Source: Halorubrum xinjiangense (lineage in GTDB: Archaea > Halobacteriota > Halobacteria > Halobacteriales > Haloferacaceae). From it: DNA of 48,733 bases. The notes under the pieces are model-generated. The model was not told the origin of the DNA. It searched no databases and was given only the letters and a program-made list of their open reading frames with translations. Shown here piece by piece: positions 44,752 through 48,733 of the stretch. The position numbers and the translations under genes were made by a program. Position 1 is the first letter of the stretch. Every line of letters begins with the position of its first letter. Where the stretch lies: assembly GCF_900102375.1 (NCBI RefSeq), contig NZ_FNBO01000019.1:1-48733 (forward strand), read 5' to 3'.

Positions 44752-44963
44752 GGTCAGCGCTTCGGCCGGACGACACAAAAAGGGTGTCGACACAGGGCGA
44801 GCGGCCGGGGCTCCGCGGGGGCTCGCGCCTCGACTGCGGCGAGGTCCGCGCGCTCGACGGCGACGCGGATCGGCGCTCGACGGCGGCGAGGTCCGGCGCG
44901 TCCGATGCCGGCGAACCGGACCGCGACGACGGGGTTGATACGTGTCGCGCGCGAGGCGGAGGT

Positions 44964-45755
44964 ATGTACATCGCGGACCACACTTGGCCGGAGCTGGGCG
45001 ACGCGCTGTCCCCCGGATCCGTCGCGCTCGTCCCGCTCGGCTCGACCGAACAGCACGGCCCGCACCTCCCGCTCGCGACCGACCACCTGATCGCGGAGGG
45101 ACTCGCGACGGCGGCCGCCGAGCGCTCCGATGCGTTCCGGACGCCGACGATCACCGTCGGCGTCAGCCCACACCACCGACAGTTCCCGGGGACGATGTGG
45201 GTTGACCCGCCCGAGTTCCGCGACTACGTCGAGTCGTTCGCGCGGAACCTCGCGTACCACGGCATCGACCGCGTGGTGTTCGTCAACGCCCACGGCGGTA
45301 ACGTCCAGCACCTCCGCGAGGTCGGCCGCCGGCTCCACGAGGACGAGGTCGCCTACGCCGTCGAGTGGATGTGGGACGAGTCGATCCCGGAGTTAGTCGA
45401 CGACCTCTTCGAGCGCAACGGCCCCCACGCGGGCCCCAAGGAAACTGCGATGATCACCCACCTCGCGCCCGACCTCGTCCGCGAGGACCGGCTCGAAGAC
45501 GCCCGCGACGGCGGACTCGTCGACCTCGACGACGCCGACACGATGGTCCACGGGGCTCGCACCTTCTACGACGCGGTCGACAACTCCGCGAACGGCGCGT
45601 TCGGCGACCCGACCGACGTGACCCCGGAGAAGAGCGAGCGCTTGTTCGAGGCCGCCGCGGACCAGCTCGTCCAGCTGGCGGAGTGGATCGGCGACCGCGA
45701 CGAGAGCGAGCTGTTCCCGGAGCCTCGGGTCGAGCGAAAAATCGAGAGCCGCTAA
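44964..45755 (+). CDS. Creatininase-family amidohydrolase
   Basis: A 263-residue metal-dependent amidohydrolase. The metal ligands are visible in PLGSTEQHGPHLPLATDH near 25-42 (Glu, His, Asp/His) and VFVNAHGGNVQHL near 107-118, with Glu in the AGPKETAMITHLAPD region near 160. The family includes creatininase, mycofactocin protease MftE and the archaeal formamide hydrolase ArfB, which acts after GTP cyclohydrolase III in flavin/F420 synthesis. The neighbouring MptE gene (a GTP-derived pterin enzyme) makes ArfB plausible, but the assignment is not certain. The convergent mptE gene overlaps it by four bases. Confidence 0.85.
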   Translation: MYIADHTWPELGDALSPGSVALVPLGSTEQHGPHLPLATDHLIAEGLATAAAERSDAFRTPTITVGVSPHHRQFPGTMWVDPPEFRDYVESFARNLAYHGIDRVVFVNAHGGNVQHLREVGRRLHEDEVAYAVEWMWDESIPELVDDLFERNGPHAGPKETAMITHLAPDLVREDRLEDARDGGLVDLDDADTMVHGARTFYDAVDNSANGAFGDPTDVTPEKSERLFEAAADQLVQLAEWIGDRDESELFPEPRVERKIESR

Positions 45756-46477
45756 CCGTCGGCGGAGCCCGATTCAGACGTTTCCCCGAAAATCTCGCTC
45801 AGGGCAGCGTCCGCCGCCTCGCGGCGTCCGTCCAGAATCTCGAACTCCTCGTCGCGCCGGCGTTCGAGCCAGCGCAGCAGCCGCGCGGCCCAGTCGAGCT
45901 TCCGCGCCTTCATCGGGTCGACGTCGGGGTCGTCGAACTCCCAGCCCGGGAAGACGAGGTCGCCGGCCCCGACGTGGTCGGCGAGGAACGCGGCGCGGTC
46001 GCCGTCGGTGAACCCGCCGGTGTTCCGGACCGGGCCGACCGGGGCCGCCTGCGTCGTCGCAAGCGTCCACTCGTCGGCGAAGCGCGGGAGCCACTCGCGG
46101 ACCGCCGGGACGTTGTCGCCGTGGGCGTGGGCGGCGACGGGGACGCCGTCGCGGGTCAGCGCCGCCGCAGTCTCCGGGTTCTTGTCGAGGTCGGTCACCA
46201 TACAGTCGACGGCGACGCCGCGGTCGGCGAGGACGTCGACGGCAGTCGAGGCCGCGACGACGACGTCGGCGTCGCGGGCGAGCGCGACCTCGTCGGCGAG
46301 GCAGGGCGCCGCGCCCGCGACGGCGACGGTCCGGCCCTCCCAGTCGCCGAGGCGGTCGAGCGGGAACGGCGTGGCGAGGTCGGCGGCGACGTCGCGGGCG
46401 CGCTCGTCGGCCGCGCGGTCGAACCCGAAGTCGGTGAGGATCGCCTCGTAGACCGGTTCGAAGGCCGGGAAGTTCAC
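45752..46477 (-). CDS. mptE: 6-hydroxymethyl-7,8-dihydropterin pyrophosphokinase, MptE-type
   Basis: A 241-residue DUF115 enzyme, archaeal MptE, that uses ATP to pyrophosphorylate 6-hydroxymethyl-dihydropterin. Characteristic are TVAVAGAAPCL near 50, DVVVAASTAVDVLADRGVAVDCMVTDLDKNPE near 70-100 with the metal-binding DLDKN, VPVAAHAHGDNVP near 115 and VRNTGGFTDGDRAAFLADH near 150. Archaea use this in place of FolK. It lies 162 bases downstream of the folP-like gene on the same strand, and its product would be that enzyme's substrate. Confidence 0.9.
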   Translation of the reverse strand: MNFPAFEPVYEAILTDFGFDRAADERARDVAADLATPFPLDRLGDWEGRTVAVAGAAPCLADEVALARDADVVVAASTAVDVLADRGVAVDCMVTDLDKNPETAAALTRDGVPVAAHAHGDNVPAVREWLPRFADEWTLATTQAAPVGPVRNTGGFTDGDRAAFLADHVGAGDLVFPGWEFDDPDVDPMKARKLDWAARLLRWLERRRDEEFEILDGRREAADAALSEIFGETSESGSADG

Positions 46478-46639
46478 GGGGAGATCACGCTCGGAACGGA
46501 CGTCACGCGAGTCGCCGAACGGCGCCGCCGCTGTTCGGGCGAATTATGGTATGGACCGGAGTGGCACAGAGTACCCCTACCCGCGTGCCCCTCCGGCGTC
46601 CGGTCGATCGGTTGTCTACACGAGGGCATAAACTTTCTC

Positions 46640-47920
46640 TTAACTCACGTATCGGTCGATTTCCGCGATCGCAGCGTCGAGCGGCTCCGAAACGCCGGAT
46701 ACCGCCTCTCTCACCGAATTGATCGCGGCGGGCGTCCCGATCAGGAGTCCGCGGCGGTCGCTCGCGTCGCCGTCGCCGAGCGGCGCCTCGCCCCCGGTGT
46801 CGCCGGTACCGCCGTCGGTCGCCGAGGGAGCCGTCTGCGCCCCGGCGCGGTCCGGGTCGCCGAGCGCGAAGGTCGCGCCGACCGCGTCGCCGCCGACGGT
46901 CGCGGCGCGTAACGCGCCGACTGCGGGGTCGTCGAGCCCGGAGAGCTCGTAGGTGCGGACGACCGCGTTTCCGGCGGCGGCGCGCCCGCCGTCGGTCCCC
47001 TCGGGCGCCTCGGGCGCGCCGATCCGGTTGAGATGGCGCTCGGCCTCGCGGACCGTCGTCACGTCGAGCTCCTCGGCCGCGACGGCGCCGGAGTCGCCGG
47101 GGCGGTGGCGGTCGCGCGCGAACTCGGCGCCGATCAAGGCGGCGTCCCGGGTCTCGGCCACGTCGTGGGTGCGGATCACGTGGGCGCCGCGCTCGACCGC
47201 CATCGACGTGGCGGCGAGCGAGACGGGGAGCGCCTCCTCGGTGCTCCGACCCGCGATGGTCCTGAGGAAGCTCTTGCGGTTGATCGAGACGAGCAGGGGG
47301 CGGCCGTACCCGCGGAACTCCCGCAGCCGGTGGAACGTCTCGCGGTCGTCTTCGTGGGTCTTCGCCGCCGACCAGCCGCCGAACGCGGGGTCGAGGATGG
47401 TCTTGTCGGTAAACCCGTTCATCGACAGGGCCTCGTAGATGTCGTCGACGTCCTCGATGGCGCCCGGTCGCTCGAGGTCCGGCGGCGAGGCCATCTTCGA
47501 GACCGCCACGTCGTGTTCACGGCAGACGCGGGGCATCTCGGGGTCGGCGAAGCCGCAGATATCGTTGACCATGTCGAAGCCGCGCGAGAGCGCCTCGTCG
47601 GCGACCTCGTGATAGCGCGTCTCGATCGACCAGACGGCGTCGCCAGAAGTCGATTCGAGCGTCTCGACGGCGGTGTCGAGCCGGTCCAGCTCCTGTTCGG
47701 CAGAGAGCACGTCGAGGTCCTTGTTCGCCGATTCGAGGCCCACGTCGACGATGTCGGCGCCCTCGCCGATCAGCTCCTCGTCGACGTACCGAGCCGCCTC
47801 GCCCGGGTCGTCGTACACGCTCGGGTCGTACGGTGACTCCTCGGAGACGTTGAGCACGCCCATGATCCGGGGCGGGTGGTCGTCGCCGATCCCCAGCCCT
47901 GCGGCGTCCACATTTCGCAT
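46640..47920 (-). CDS. folP: Dihydropteroate synthase-like protein
   Basis: A 426-residue protein with an N-terminal dihydropteroate synthase barrel (about 1-255) and a C-terminal extension of about 170 residues not found in bacterial FolP. The barrel keeps IMGVLNVSEES, NDICGFADP, TILDPAFGGWSAAK, LVSINRKSFL and IRTHDV. The canonical TPDSFSDG and GGESTRPG loops are replaced by SEESPYDPS and DVGLESANK, so p-aminobenzoate binding may differ. The extension contains a low-complexity Gly/Asp/Thr stretch (near 335-375). Likely role: folate-like pterin synthesis with the adjacent MptE. A TATA box lies 27 bases upstream of the ATG. Confidence 0.82.
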   Translation of the reverse strand: MRNVDAAGLGIGDDHPPRIMGVLNVSEESPYDPSVYDDPGEAARYVDEELIGEGADIVDVGLESANKDLDVLSAEQELDRLDTAVETLESTSGDAVWSIETRYHEVADEALSRGFDMVNDICGFADPEMPRVCREHDVAVSKMASPPDLERPGAIEDVDDIYEALSMNGFTDKTILDPAFGGWSAAKTHEDDRETFHRLREFRGYGRPLLVSINRKSFLRTIAGRSTEEALPVSLAATSMAVERGAHVIRTHDVAETRDAALIGAEFARDRHRPGDSGAVAAEELDVTTVREAERHLNRIGAPEAPEGTDGGRAAAGNAVVRTYELSGLDDPAVGALRAATVGGDAVGATFALGDPDRAGAQTAPSATDGGTGDTGGEAPLGDGDASDRRGLLIGTPAAINSVREAVSGVSEPLDAAIAEIDRYVS

Positions 47921-48393: not shown

Positions 48394-48733
48394 CGCGGTG
48401 TTAAGTTAAGAATGAGGCGGGACGAGGATTCAGTGCCTATGCCGAAAACCGCCCGCCTCACCGAGTCTACCGAGTGGATCGACTTGGGGTTTGTGGAGCG
48501 AGAACGGACACCCCGCGAGATCATTGAAAAGGGTATTCGCCACCATCTCGCTGGACTATCACTTTCGAATACAGTTATTCTTCTTGAGGAGTTGGGTGTC
48601 GATCGAAGTCGTGTTGCTGTTCACAATTGGGTACAGAAAGCCGATCTACAGCCAGCTGACGGTGAGAGCCCGGATCGCGTTGCGGTCGATCAGAAAGCGA
48701 TCCGGATCAACGACGAGCAGTACTGGCTGTACG
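48394..48733 (+). mobile_element. Left part of an IS6-family element (partial)
   Basis: The transposase gene begins at 48439 and runs off the window. The segment GCGGTGTTAAGTTAAG (48395-48410) just upstream is the kind of sequence expected at the terminal repeat of a haloarchaeal IS6-like element, but the right end is not in view, so the exact boundary is a guess. Confidence 0.55.
48439..48733 (+). CDS. IS6-family transposase, N-terminal part
   Basis: The first 98 codons are visible; the gene continues past the window. The N-terminus MPKTARLTESTEWIDLGFVERERTPREI, shown here in two halves only, is followed by the helix-turn-helix region (GLSLSNTVILLEELGVDRSRVAVHNWVQKADLQPA) and the first catalytic Asp at VAVDQKAIRI. 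These match haloarchaeal IS6-type transposases (ISH14/ISH15 group). Codon use is more AT-rich than neighbouring genes, a sign of recent arrival. Confidence 0.85.
   Translation, partial: MPKTARLTESTEWIDLGFVERERTPREIIEKGIRHHLAGLSLSNTVILLEELGVDRSRVAVHNWVQKADLQPADGESPDRVAVDQKAIRINDEQYWLY

Follow-up and report, generated by a model that had tools for sequence, protein, structure and literature searches.

A second DHPS-like gene beside mptE

The locus raises the question of why a genome that already encodes a canonical FolP carries a second gene of dihydropteroate synthase (DHPS) type, and whether the product of this second gene still joins a pterin to p-aminobenzoate (pABA). The window, which is the whole stretch of DNA analysed, is a complete contig (C19) of 48,733 bases from a haloarchaeal genome of 3.26 Mb and 99.9% completeness. 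Its positions 46640-47920 hold an intact 426-aa ORF on the minus strand, with the ATG at 47920 and the stop ending at 46640. A deposited record annotates this protein as dihydropteroate synthase (folP), and its nearest named matches are from Halorubrum. The features of the locus are listed below; residue changes follow B. anthracis numbering.

46640-47920, minus strand: DHPS-like paralog, 426 aa (ORF and translation; PF00809, E 1.3e-35; TIGR01496, 164.5 bits)
47111-47920, minus strand: predicted TIM barrel of DHPS fold, about residues 1-270 (AlphaFold2 model; match to 3tr9_D)
47813-47845, minus strand: loop 1, residues 26-36 (SEESPYDPSVY); Phe33 to Pro and Gly36 to Pro in 115/115 main rows
47717-47737, minus strand: loop 2, residues 62-68 (LESANKD); Thr67 to Ala, Arg68 to Asn and Pro69 to Lys in 115/115 main rows
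46643-47098, minus strand: C-terminal extension, residues 275-426, matched by hhalign to the DHPS accessory domain, here after the barrel
45752-46477, minus strand: mptE, 6-hydroxymethyl-7,8-dihydropterin diphosphokinase (PF01973), which directly follows the paralog

Pfam assigned the protein a single domain, Pterin_bind (PF00809). The NCBIfam DHPS equivalog TIGR01496 was passed marginally (164.5 bits vs a cut-off of 162.6), and a canonical haloarchaeal FolC-FolP scored 290.5 bits against the same model. The AlphaFold2 model (pLDDT 77, pTM 0.71, 39 sequences) contained a DHPS barrel at about residues 1-272, and the top solved chain for it was 3tr9_D (Z 27.9, rmsd 2.8, 253 aligned residues, model range 2-271). 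At the level of a predicted structure, these results confirm that the paralog adopts the DHPS TIM-barrel fold. An earlier note, made from the sequence alone, had placed a DHPS-like gene here, and the ORF, the Pfam match and the predicted fold bear it out.

The earlier note had also proposed a search of the genome for a canonical folP fused to folC. Such a FolC-FolP fusion was found on contig C17, scoring 263.4 bits vs 125 for the window's gene, and paralogy was thereby established by computation. All of the 145 haloarchaeal genomes surveyed, each at least 90% complete, encode canonical FolP, and the paralog was found in 141 of them; the four without a paralog match (G032, G033, G041 and G078) thus still have FolP. 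One further genome holds three DHPS barrels, since a second canonical-type FolP, an 891-codon open frame, lies beside the first (L052, G022:C3).

The gene downstream of the paralog was called as mptE by PF01973 (49.8 bits vs a cut-off of 34.6). Of the 80 named loci, 77 had MptE downstream of the paralog and in the same orientation, 75 of these with a computed gap of less than 400 nt, and two of the three loci without a downstream MptE end at a contig edge. The two genes are proposed to form an operon. The gap between them in the window (46478-46639) is 162 nt; it is about 100-240 nt in most loci and 2 nt in L096 and L104, and an mptE promoter or leader may lie within it. An MptE match was obtained in all seven genomes checked, including the four without the paralog, and six of the seven exceeded the family cut-off. 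Three of the paralog-less genomes had matches over most of the MptE length and G078 had a fragment only. In that single-contig genome (L160, 5930-6268) the match spans residues 108-220 only and the paralog was not found, which suggests a deletion through the operon.

Other genes lie nearby. Beside mptE, on the opposite strand, is a creatininase-family gene (44829-45755), whose best NCBIfam model was MftE (141.9 bits vs a cut-off of 172) and which scored 30.5 vs 180 for ArfB, both under the cut-off. A transposase-like ORF, recognised by eye from its start (MRRDEDSVPMPKTARLTESTEWIDLGF...), begins within 48412-48733 and runs off the contig end. Of 30 other loci, 27-28 have divergent genes for an RNA methyltransferase (by record annotation) and a 'GLRGWRF' protein upstream, mostly close. 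A search of the host genome gave no FolB. We considered whether the paralog replaces a missing dihydroneopterin aldolase and rejected this, given that MptD (PF04038, 129.2 bits) is encoded in the genome and is also matched in H. volcanii.

The substrate pocket of the paralog

The main comparison comprised 115 paralog rows (99 distinct), many of them from Halorubrum and the window's own gene among them; five divergent rows were counted apart. By selection, 109 main rows (29 from L003-L032 and 80 from L053-L132) carry MG[VIL][LVI]NV and R[TVA]HD[VP] and no GGESTRPG, and the remaining six were chosen by a looser motif. One of 110 loci, L028, failed the first motif filter, but L046 stands in for its gene. 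Because the peptides RIMGVLNV or ESPYDPSV served to find the 80 named loci, these are biased toward loop 1 identity; the 29 rows from a whole-protein search carry ESPYDPS and the A-N-K loop in 29 of 29. For canonical FolP we used 22 rows, the motif-passing subset of 25 loci (L050, L137 and L152 were left out).

Loop 1 of the paralog reads NVSEESPYDPSV and loop 2 reads DVGLESANKD, where the canonical FolP of the same genome has NVTPDSFHDGG and DVGGESTRPG. The reading of SEESPYDPS for TPDSFSDG and DVGLESANK for GGESTRPG, made in the earlier note, held well beyond this one gene: the replaced state is fixed in 115/115 main rows. Phe33 is Pro, Thr67 is Ala, Arg68 is Asn and Pro69 is Lys in every one of these haloarchaeal rows, and F33, T67, R68, P69, F189 and K220 are all kept in the 22 canonical rows. 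Replacements fixed to this degree are not due to chance. Further changes relative to canonical FolP are Ser218 to Asn, Gly64 to Leu and a shortening of the segment that follows the MAS motif.

In the S. aureus enzyme, the pABA pocket consists of Phe17, Pro53, Phe172 and Lys203, and the Thr51 hydroxyl bonds the pABA amine and the pyrophosphate (PMC6057106). Our alignment maps F17, P53, F172, K203 and T51 onto B. anthracis F33, P69, F189, K220 and T67. By this mapping, the paralog has lost three of the five residues published as forming the pABA pocket: the equivalents of F17, T51 and P53 are Pro, Ala and Lys in 115/115 main rows, and the pocket Lys is retained in all of them. Loss of a fourth, the Phe172 equivalent, is doubtful. 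The position is Gly in 112/115 main rows, with Trp next to it in 115/115, and the alignment is gapped there; among 38 archaeal relatives (described below) the Phe172 equivalent is missing in most rows and the Trp is present in 37. The adjacent Trp could serve instead, and Trp183 together with Lys67 may line the rebuilt pocket.

The residues on the pterin and pyrophosphate side were largely kept. N27, D61, N120, M145, D184, K220, R254 and H256 are retained in 115/115 main rows, part of the N27, R254 and H256 counts being guaranteed by the row filter. Within the set that we take to form the pterin site (N27, D101, N120, D184 and K220), four residues are kept in 115/115 and D101 is Glu in 115/115; the same Glu occurs in the five divergent rows, hence in all 120 paralog rows. 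The earlier statement that the pterin-site motifs remain therefore stands for N27, N120, D184, K220 and others, but not for Asp101.

The five divergent rows share Thr67 to Ala and Arg68 to Asn (5/5). Phe33 is Gly in three and Pro in two, Pro69 is kept in two and K220 is Glu in three. As aligned, the K220-to-Glu rows show one paralog subgroup that has drifted further still. A divergent subgroup (L168, L169 and L043) has SGYKPS or SGWKPS as loop 1, LQSAN as loop 2 and TNREDFL for INRKxFL, in which the pterin lysine becomes Glu. The paralogs of 17 of the 141 genomes score below 460 bits, and one of these (L044, in G025) retains the lysine. With K220 replaced by Glu in three and Pro69 kept in two of the five divergent rows, a single common chemistry fits poorly.

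Given these replacements, we considered whether the paralog could still be a folate DHPS, that is, a redundant or sulfonamide-insensitive FolP that binds pABA via different loop residues. It scores just over the TIGR01496 cut-off, and its location beside mptE is as expected of a folate enzyme, since the folate branch needs mptE too; however, canonical FolP is already present in 145/145 genomes, and four FolP-bearing genomes of the 145 were found without the paralog. The Trp beside the lost Phe could take its place in the pocket. The S. aureus Thr51 equivalent is Ala in 115/115 main and 5/5 divergent rows. Diverged DHPS can keep the KM for pABA, as the Sul enzymes illustrate: Sul1-3 use pABA with an E. 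coli-like KM (PMC10328974). Folate synthesis is the probable role of those non-haloarchaeal relatives in which F33, T67 and P69 are kept. Against this background, the replacement of three of five published pocket residues, fixed in 115/115 main rows, makes a folate role for the paralog possible but rather unlikely.

We favour the reading that the paralog is an active pterin transferase with an acceptor other than pABA, to which we assign a probability of about 0.5. From the residues kept and lost, we infer that it would be catalytic and would reject pABA. An acceptor other than pABA had been raised as a possibility in the earlier note, and the three replaced and fixed pocket residues, together with FolP in 145/145 genomes, lend that suggestion indirect support.

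The C-terminal extension and the origin of the paralog

With its low-complexity insert, the extension amounts to about 150 residues (275-426), and in Haloferax to about 105; the extension reported earlier is thus present, at about 150 rather than 170 residues. Its profile matched the linker of FolC-FolP by hhalign over 107 columns, in order (E 1.7e-5, score 38.9), and the controls, comprising two reversed profiles, seven other FolC/FolP segments and 30 column shuffles, reached a maximum of 17.2. A second match, at E 2.4e-5 vs E 0.27 for the reversed control, was to the domain that long archaeal relatives carry at their C-terminus. The latter domain in turn matched both the linker of FolC-FolP (E 4.7e-19) and the domain at the N-terminus of a bacterial long FolP (E 2.5e-16). 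Direct comparison of the haloarchaeal extension with one bacterial N-terminal domain (Sulfurovum) gave no match (E 0.27), and the link to the bacterial domain therefore runs via the archaeal relatives and the FolC-FolP linker.

These profile comparisons identify the extension computationally as the accessory domain that FolC-FolP and the long archaeal DHPS also carry and that lies before the barrel in FolC-FolP and in the Sulfurovum FolP and after the barrel in the archaeal form. A new domain was ruled out by the linker match (38.9 vs at most 17.2 in controls). What had been described as a long extra domain is instead an accessory domain placed as in the archaeal relatives and absent in at least one ortholog, the 291-residue paralog at locus L161, where it is dispensable. 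Structure prediction of the extension, another proposal of that description, was informative in part: a model of the extension only (Haloferax sequence first) was confident, with a pLDDT of 94.3, but had no PDB match at E <= 0.001, and the fold is therefore not named.

Among 119 genomes of the phylum, 56 non-haloarchaeal genomes gave one match each to the paralog profile. Loci were taken from 40 of them; two had canonical loops, and the other 38 (L179-L217 without L209), which are DHPS of other Halobacteriota, had the archaeal form. Many of the 38 share with the paralog the VDxxGLxIGDxxPxRxMG start, the loop-1 Ser-x-Tyr, MAS, DPA-x-G-x-W and RTHD. F33, T67 and D101 are kept in 38/38 and P69 in 36/38, and R68 is Ala or Trp in 37. 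Three strongly diverged DHPS-like proteins (L214, L216 and L217), from one family of the phylum (f21), are placed on long branches or next to them; in L216 and L217 loop 2 contains GGMSTAP, and RTHN or RTHC replaces RTHD.

In a 78-row tree, rooted at the midpoint and with one bacterial row, the 24 paralog rows (one of them, PAR_L025, trimmed to 145 residues) grouped as a single clade (support 100/100) with a stem 1.24 long. A split with 96/93 support set the paralog and 35 of the 38 rows from other Halobacteriota apart from the FolC-FolP, bacterial and canonical rows, three long-branched archaeal rows falling on the other side. The tree computation thus shows the paralog to be kin to the DHPS of other Halobacteriota. 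Since these relatives keep F33, T67 and D101 (38/38) and P69 (36/38), the pocket loss looks haloarchaeal, and most simply the rebuilding would have occurred on the haloarchaeal stem. The length of this stem is what one might expect if the gene were a sequence or annotation artefact or were drifting under relaxed constraint toward a pseudogene, but the ORF is intact, the motifs are fixed over 115 rows (99 distinct) from many genera, and 141/145 genomes have the gene; invariance across genera already refutes this explanation in practice.

TIGR00284 (MJ0301 type), which we take to be the methanopterin-branch DHPS of methanogens, was present in 95 of the 119 phylum genomes, all 95 non-haloarchaeal, and in none of the 22 haloarchaea among the 119. 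We dropped the idea that the paralog is a methanopterin enzyme simply inherited. The complementary distribution of TIGR00284 and archaeal DHPS expected under it was not found among the 119 genomes: most non-haloarchaeal genomes with archaeal DHPS also have TIGR00284, so that archaeal DHPS there need not serve methanopterin and the ancestral form of the paralog probably served folate. Methanosarcina makes folate. The ancestral archaeal DHPS may have been freed from folate duty once haloarchaea gained a bacterial-type FolC-FolP, and the freed paralog may then have switched acceptor, perhaps covering for the TIGR00284 missing from the sampled haloarchaea.

A candidate acceptor and comparison with known systems

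The adjacency of mptE and the kept pterin and pyrophosphate residues suggest the pterin diphosphate (DHPPP) as donor, and the replaced pABA pocket suggests another acceptor. As a transferase of this kind, the paralog would take DHPPP from MptE and join the pterin methylene to an amine other than that of pABA. The likeliest acceptor would be beta-ribofuranosylaminobenzene 5'-phosphate (RFA-P), which would yield a methanopterin-like arylamine, an identification that we offer tentatively and with low confidence.

A homolog of RFA-P synthase (TIGR00144) was found in 141 of the 145 haloarchaea, above the curated cut-off in 139; that of the host genome (G000:C18:38443-39432) scored 161.8 bits vs a cut-off of 113.5. 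With this homolog kept and TIGR00284 missing from the haloarchaea sampled, the paralog is the evident candidate user of RFA-P, if haloarchaea make RFA-P. Sequences were read from 10 of 11 RFA-P synthase loci, and in our own alignment the Arg26 equivalent was invariant in 10/10 and the Asp19 position was Asn in 9/10. In the methanogen RFA-P synthase, the R26K change made the KM for pABA about tenfold higher, and some activity survived D19N (PMC6787355). Annotators hold that haloarchaea use tetrahydrofolate and that HVO_2628, the RFA-P synthase homolog of H. volcanii, is probably not an RFA-P synthase (PMC8305020, PMC4500146).

Co-occurrence of the paralog and the RFA-P synthase homolog was not strict. 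Both were present in 139 genomes, the paralog only in two (drafts of 40-70 contigs), the homolog only in two and neither in two, i.e. 4/145 were discordant. Fisher's test gave p 0.0034 when every genome was a separate count and 0.06 when the two same-genus genomes lacking both were taken as one. Mch, a methanopterin-type C1 enzyme, was present in 145/145, including genomes without the paralog and the RFA-P synthase homolog, and is therefore independent of them; a second C1 carrier that feeds Mch is weakened as an explanation by the same distribution. It is in our view unlikely that haloarchaea produce, besides folate, another pterin in the form of a simplified methanopterin relative built from RFA-P and the MptE product via the paralog. 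If true, it would mean that the methanopterin branch survives, rewired, in organisms held to be folate-only.

The paralog might also not be a transferase at all, acting instead as a binder of pterin or pterin phosphate (a regulator, a carrier or an MptE chaperone) or as the enzyme of another pterin step, e.g. cyclic-phosphate opening. The haloarchaeal pathway is reported to have a gap at this step (EC 3.1.4.56; PMC8305020), and since MptD is present, the aldolase step is not open. However, four FolP-bearing genomes gave no paralog, and in three of these MptE is retained with a match that covers most of it; the paralog thus seems unneeded for making the pterin. D101 is Glu in all 120 rows and K220 is Glu in three of the five divergent rows, in favour of such a role, yet the pyrophosphate- and pterin-side residues are kept in 115/115 main rows, where the rebuilt loops likewise show invariance and no sign of erosion. 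We accordingly regard a non-transferase role as a poor prospect.

Two annotated DHPS in one haloarchaeon were already known: a published genome analysis of Natrialba magadii lists FolP Nmag_0002 and FolC-Prd-FolP Nmag_2554 (PMC3403918). In the literature searched, which left most subscription papers outside its scope, we saw no remark on the pocket and found no paper on its change. A second DHPS whose pocket is rebuilt in one fixed way, beside an ordinary FolP, in nearly all surveyed haloarchaea suggests a pterin product other than folate. If the paralog does not use pABA, nearly every haloarchaeon would have a conserved pterin reaction that awaits assignment, and the puzzling RFA-P synthase homolog would gain a candidate partner; both points can be addressed in the genetically tractable Haloferax volcanii. 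The paralog is also a natural experiment on acceptor change in a DHPS pocket.

Compared with known systems, the paralog shares with canonical FolP (FolC-FolP and bacterial FolP) the TIM barrel, the pterin and pyrophosphate residues and the accessory domain, and it is 38% identical to the FolP of its own genome over residues 18-266. It differs in the replaced pABA-pocket Phe, Thr and Pro and in Asp101 to Glu, Ser218 to Asn and Gly64 to Leu; in FolC-FolP, moreover, the accessory domain precedes the barrel, whereas in the paralog it follows the barrel, without a FolC fusion. The DHPS of other Halobacteriota share its tree branch (35/38 rows) and, where they are of the long form (18 of the 40 extracted loci), the same type of C-terminal domain, but they keep Phe33, Thr67 and Asp101 (38/38) and Pro69 (36/38), all four of which are replaced in the main haloarchaeal rows. 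TIGR00284 would catalyse the same type of reaction if the RFA-P reading is right, although the paralog is not a member of that family (12.7 bits vs a cut-off of 256.65). Sul1-Sul4, the sulfonamide-insensitive DHPS, are likewise diverged enzymes with an altered pABA region, yet the paralog falls under all Sul cut-offs (best, 81.8 vs 600 bits). The mycobacterial FolP2 is similarly an additional DHPS paralog that accompanies a working FolP, and 2vp8, 'dihydropteroate synthase 2', which we take to be this protein (Rv1207), was matched at E 1.8e-16; FolP2 is actinobacterial and has been reported to be inactive as a DHPS.
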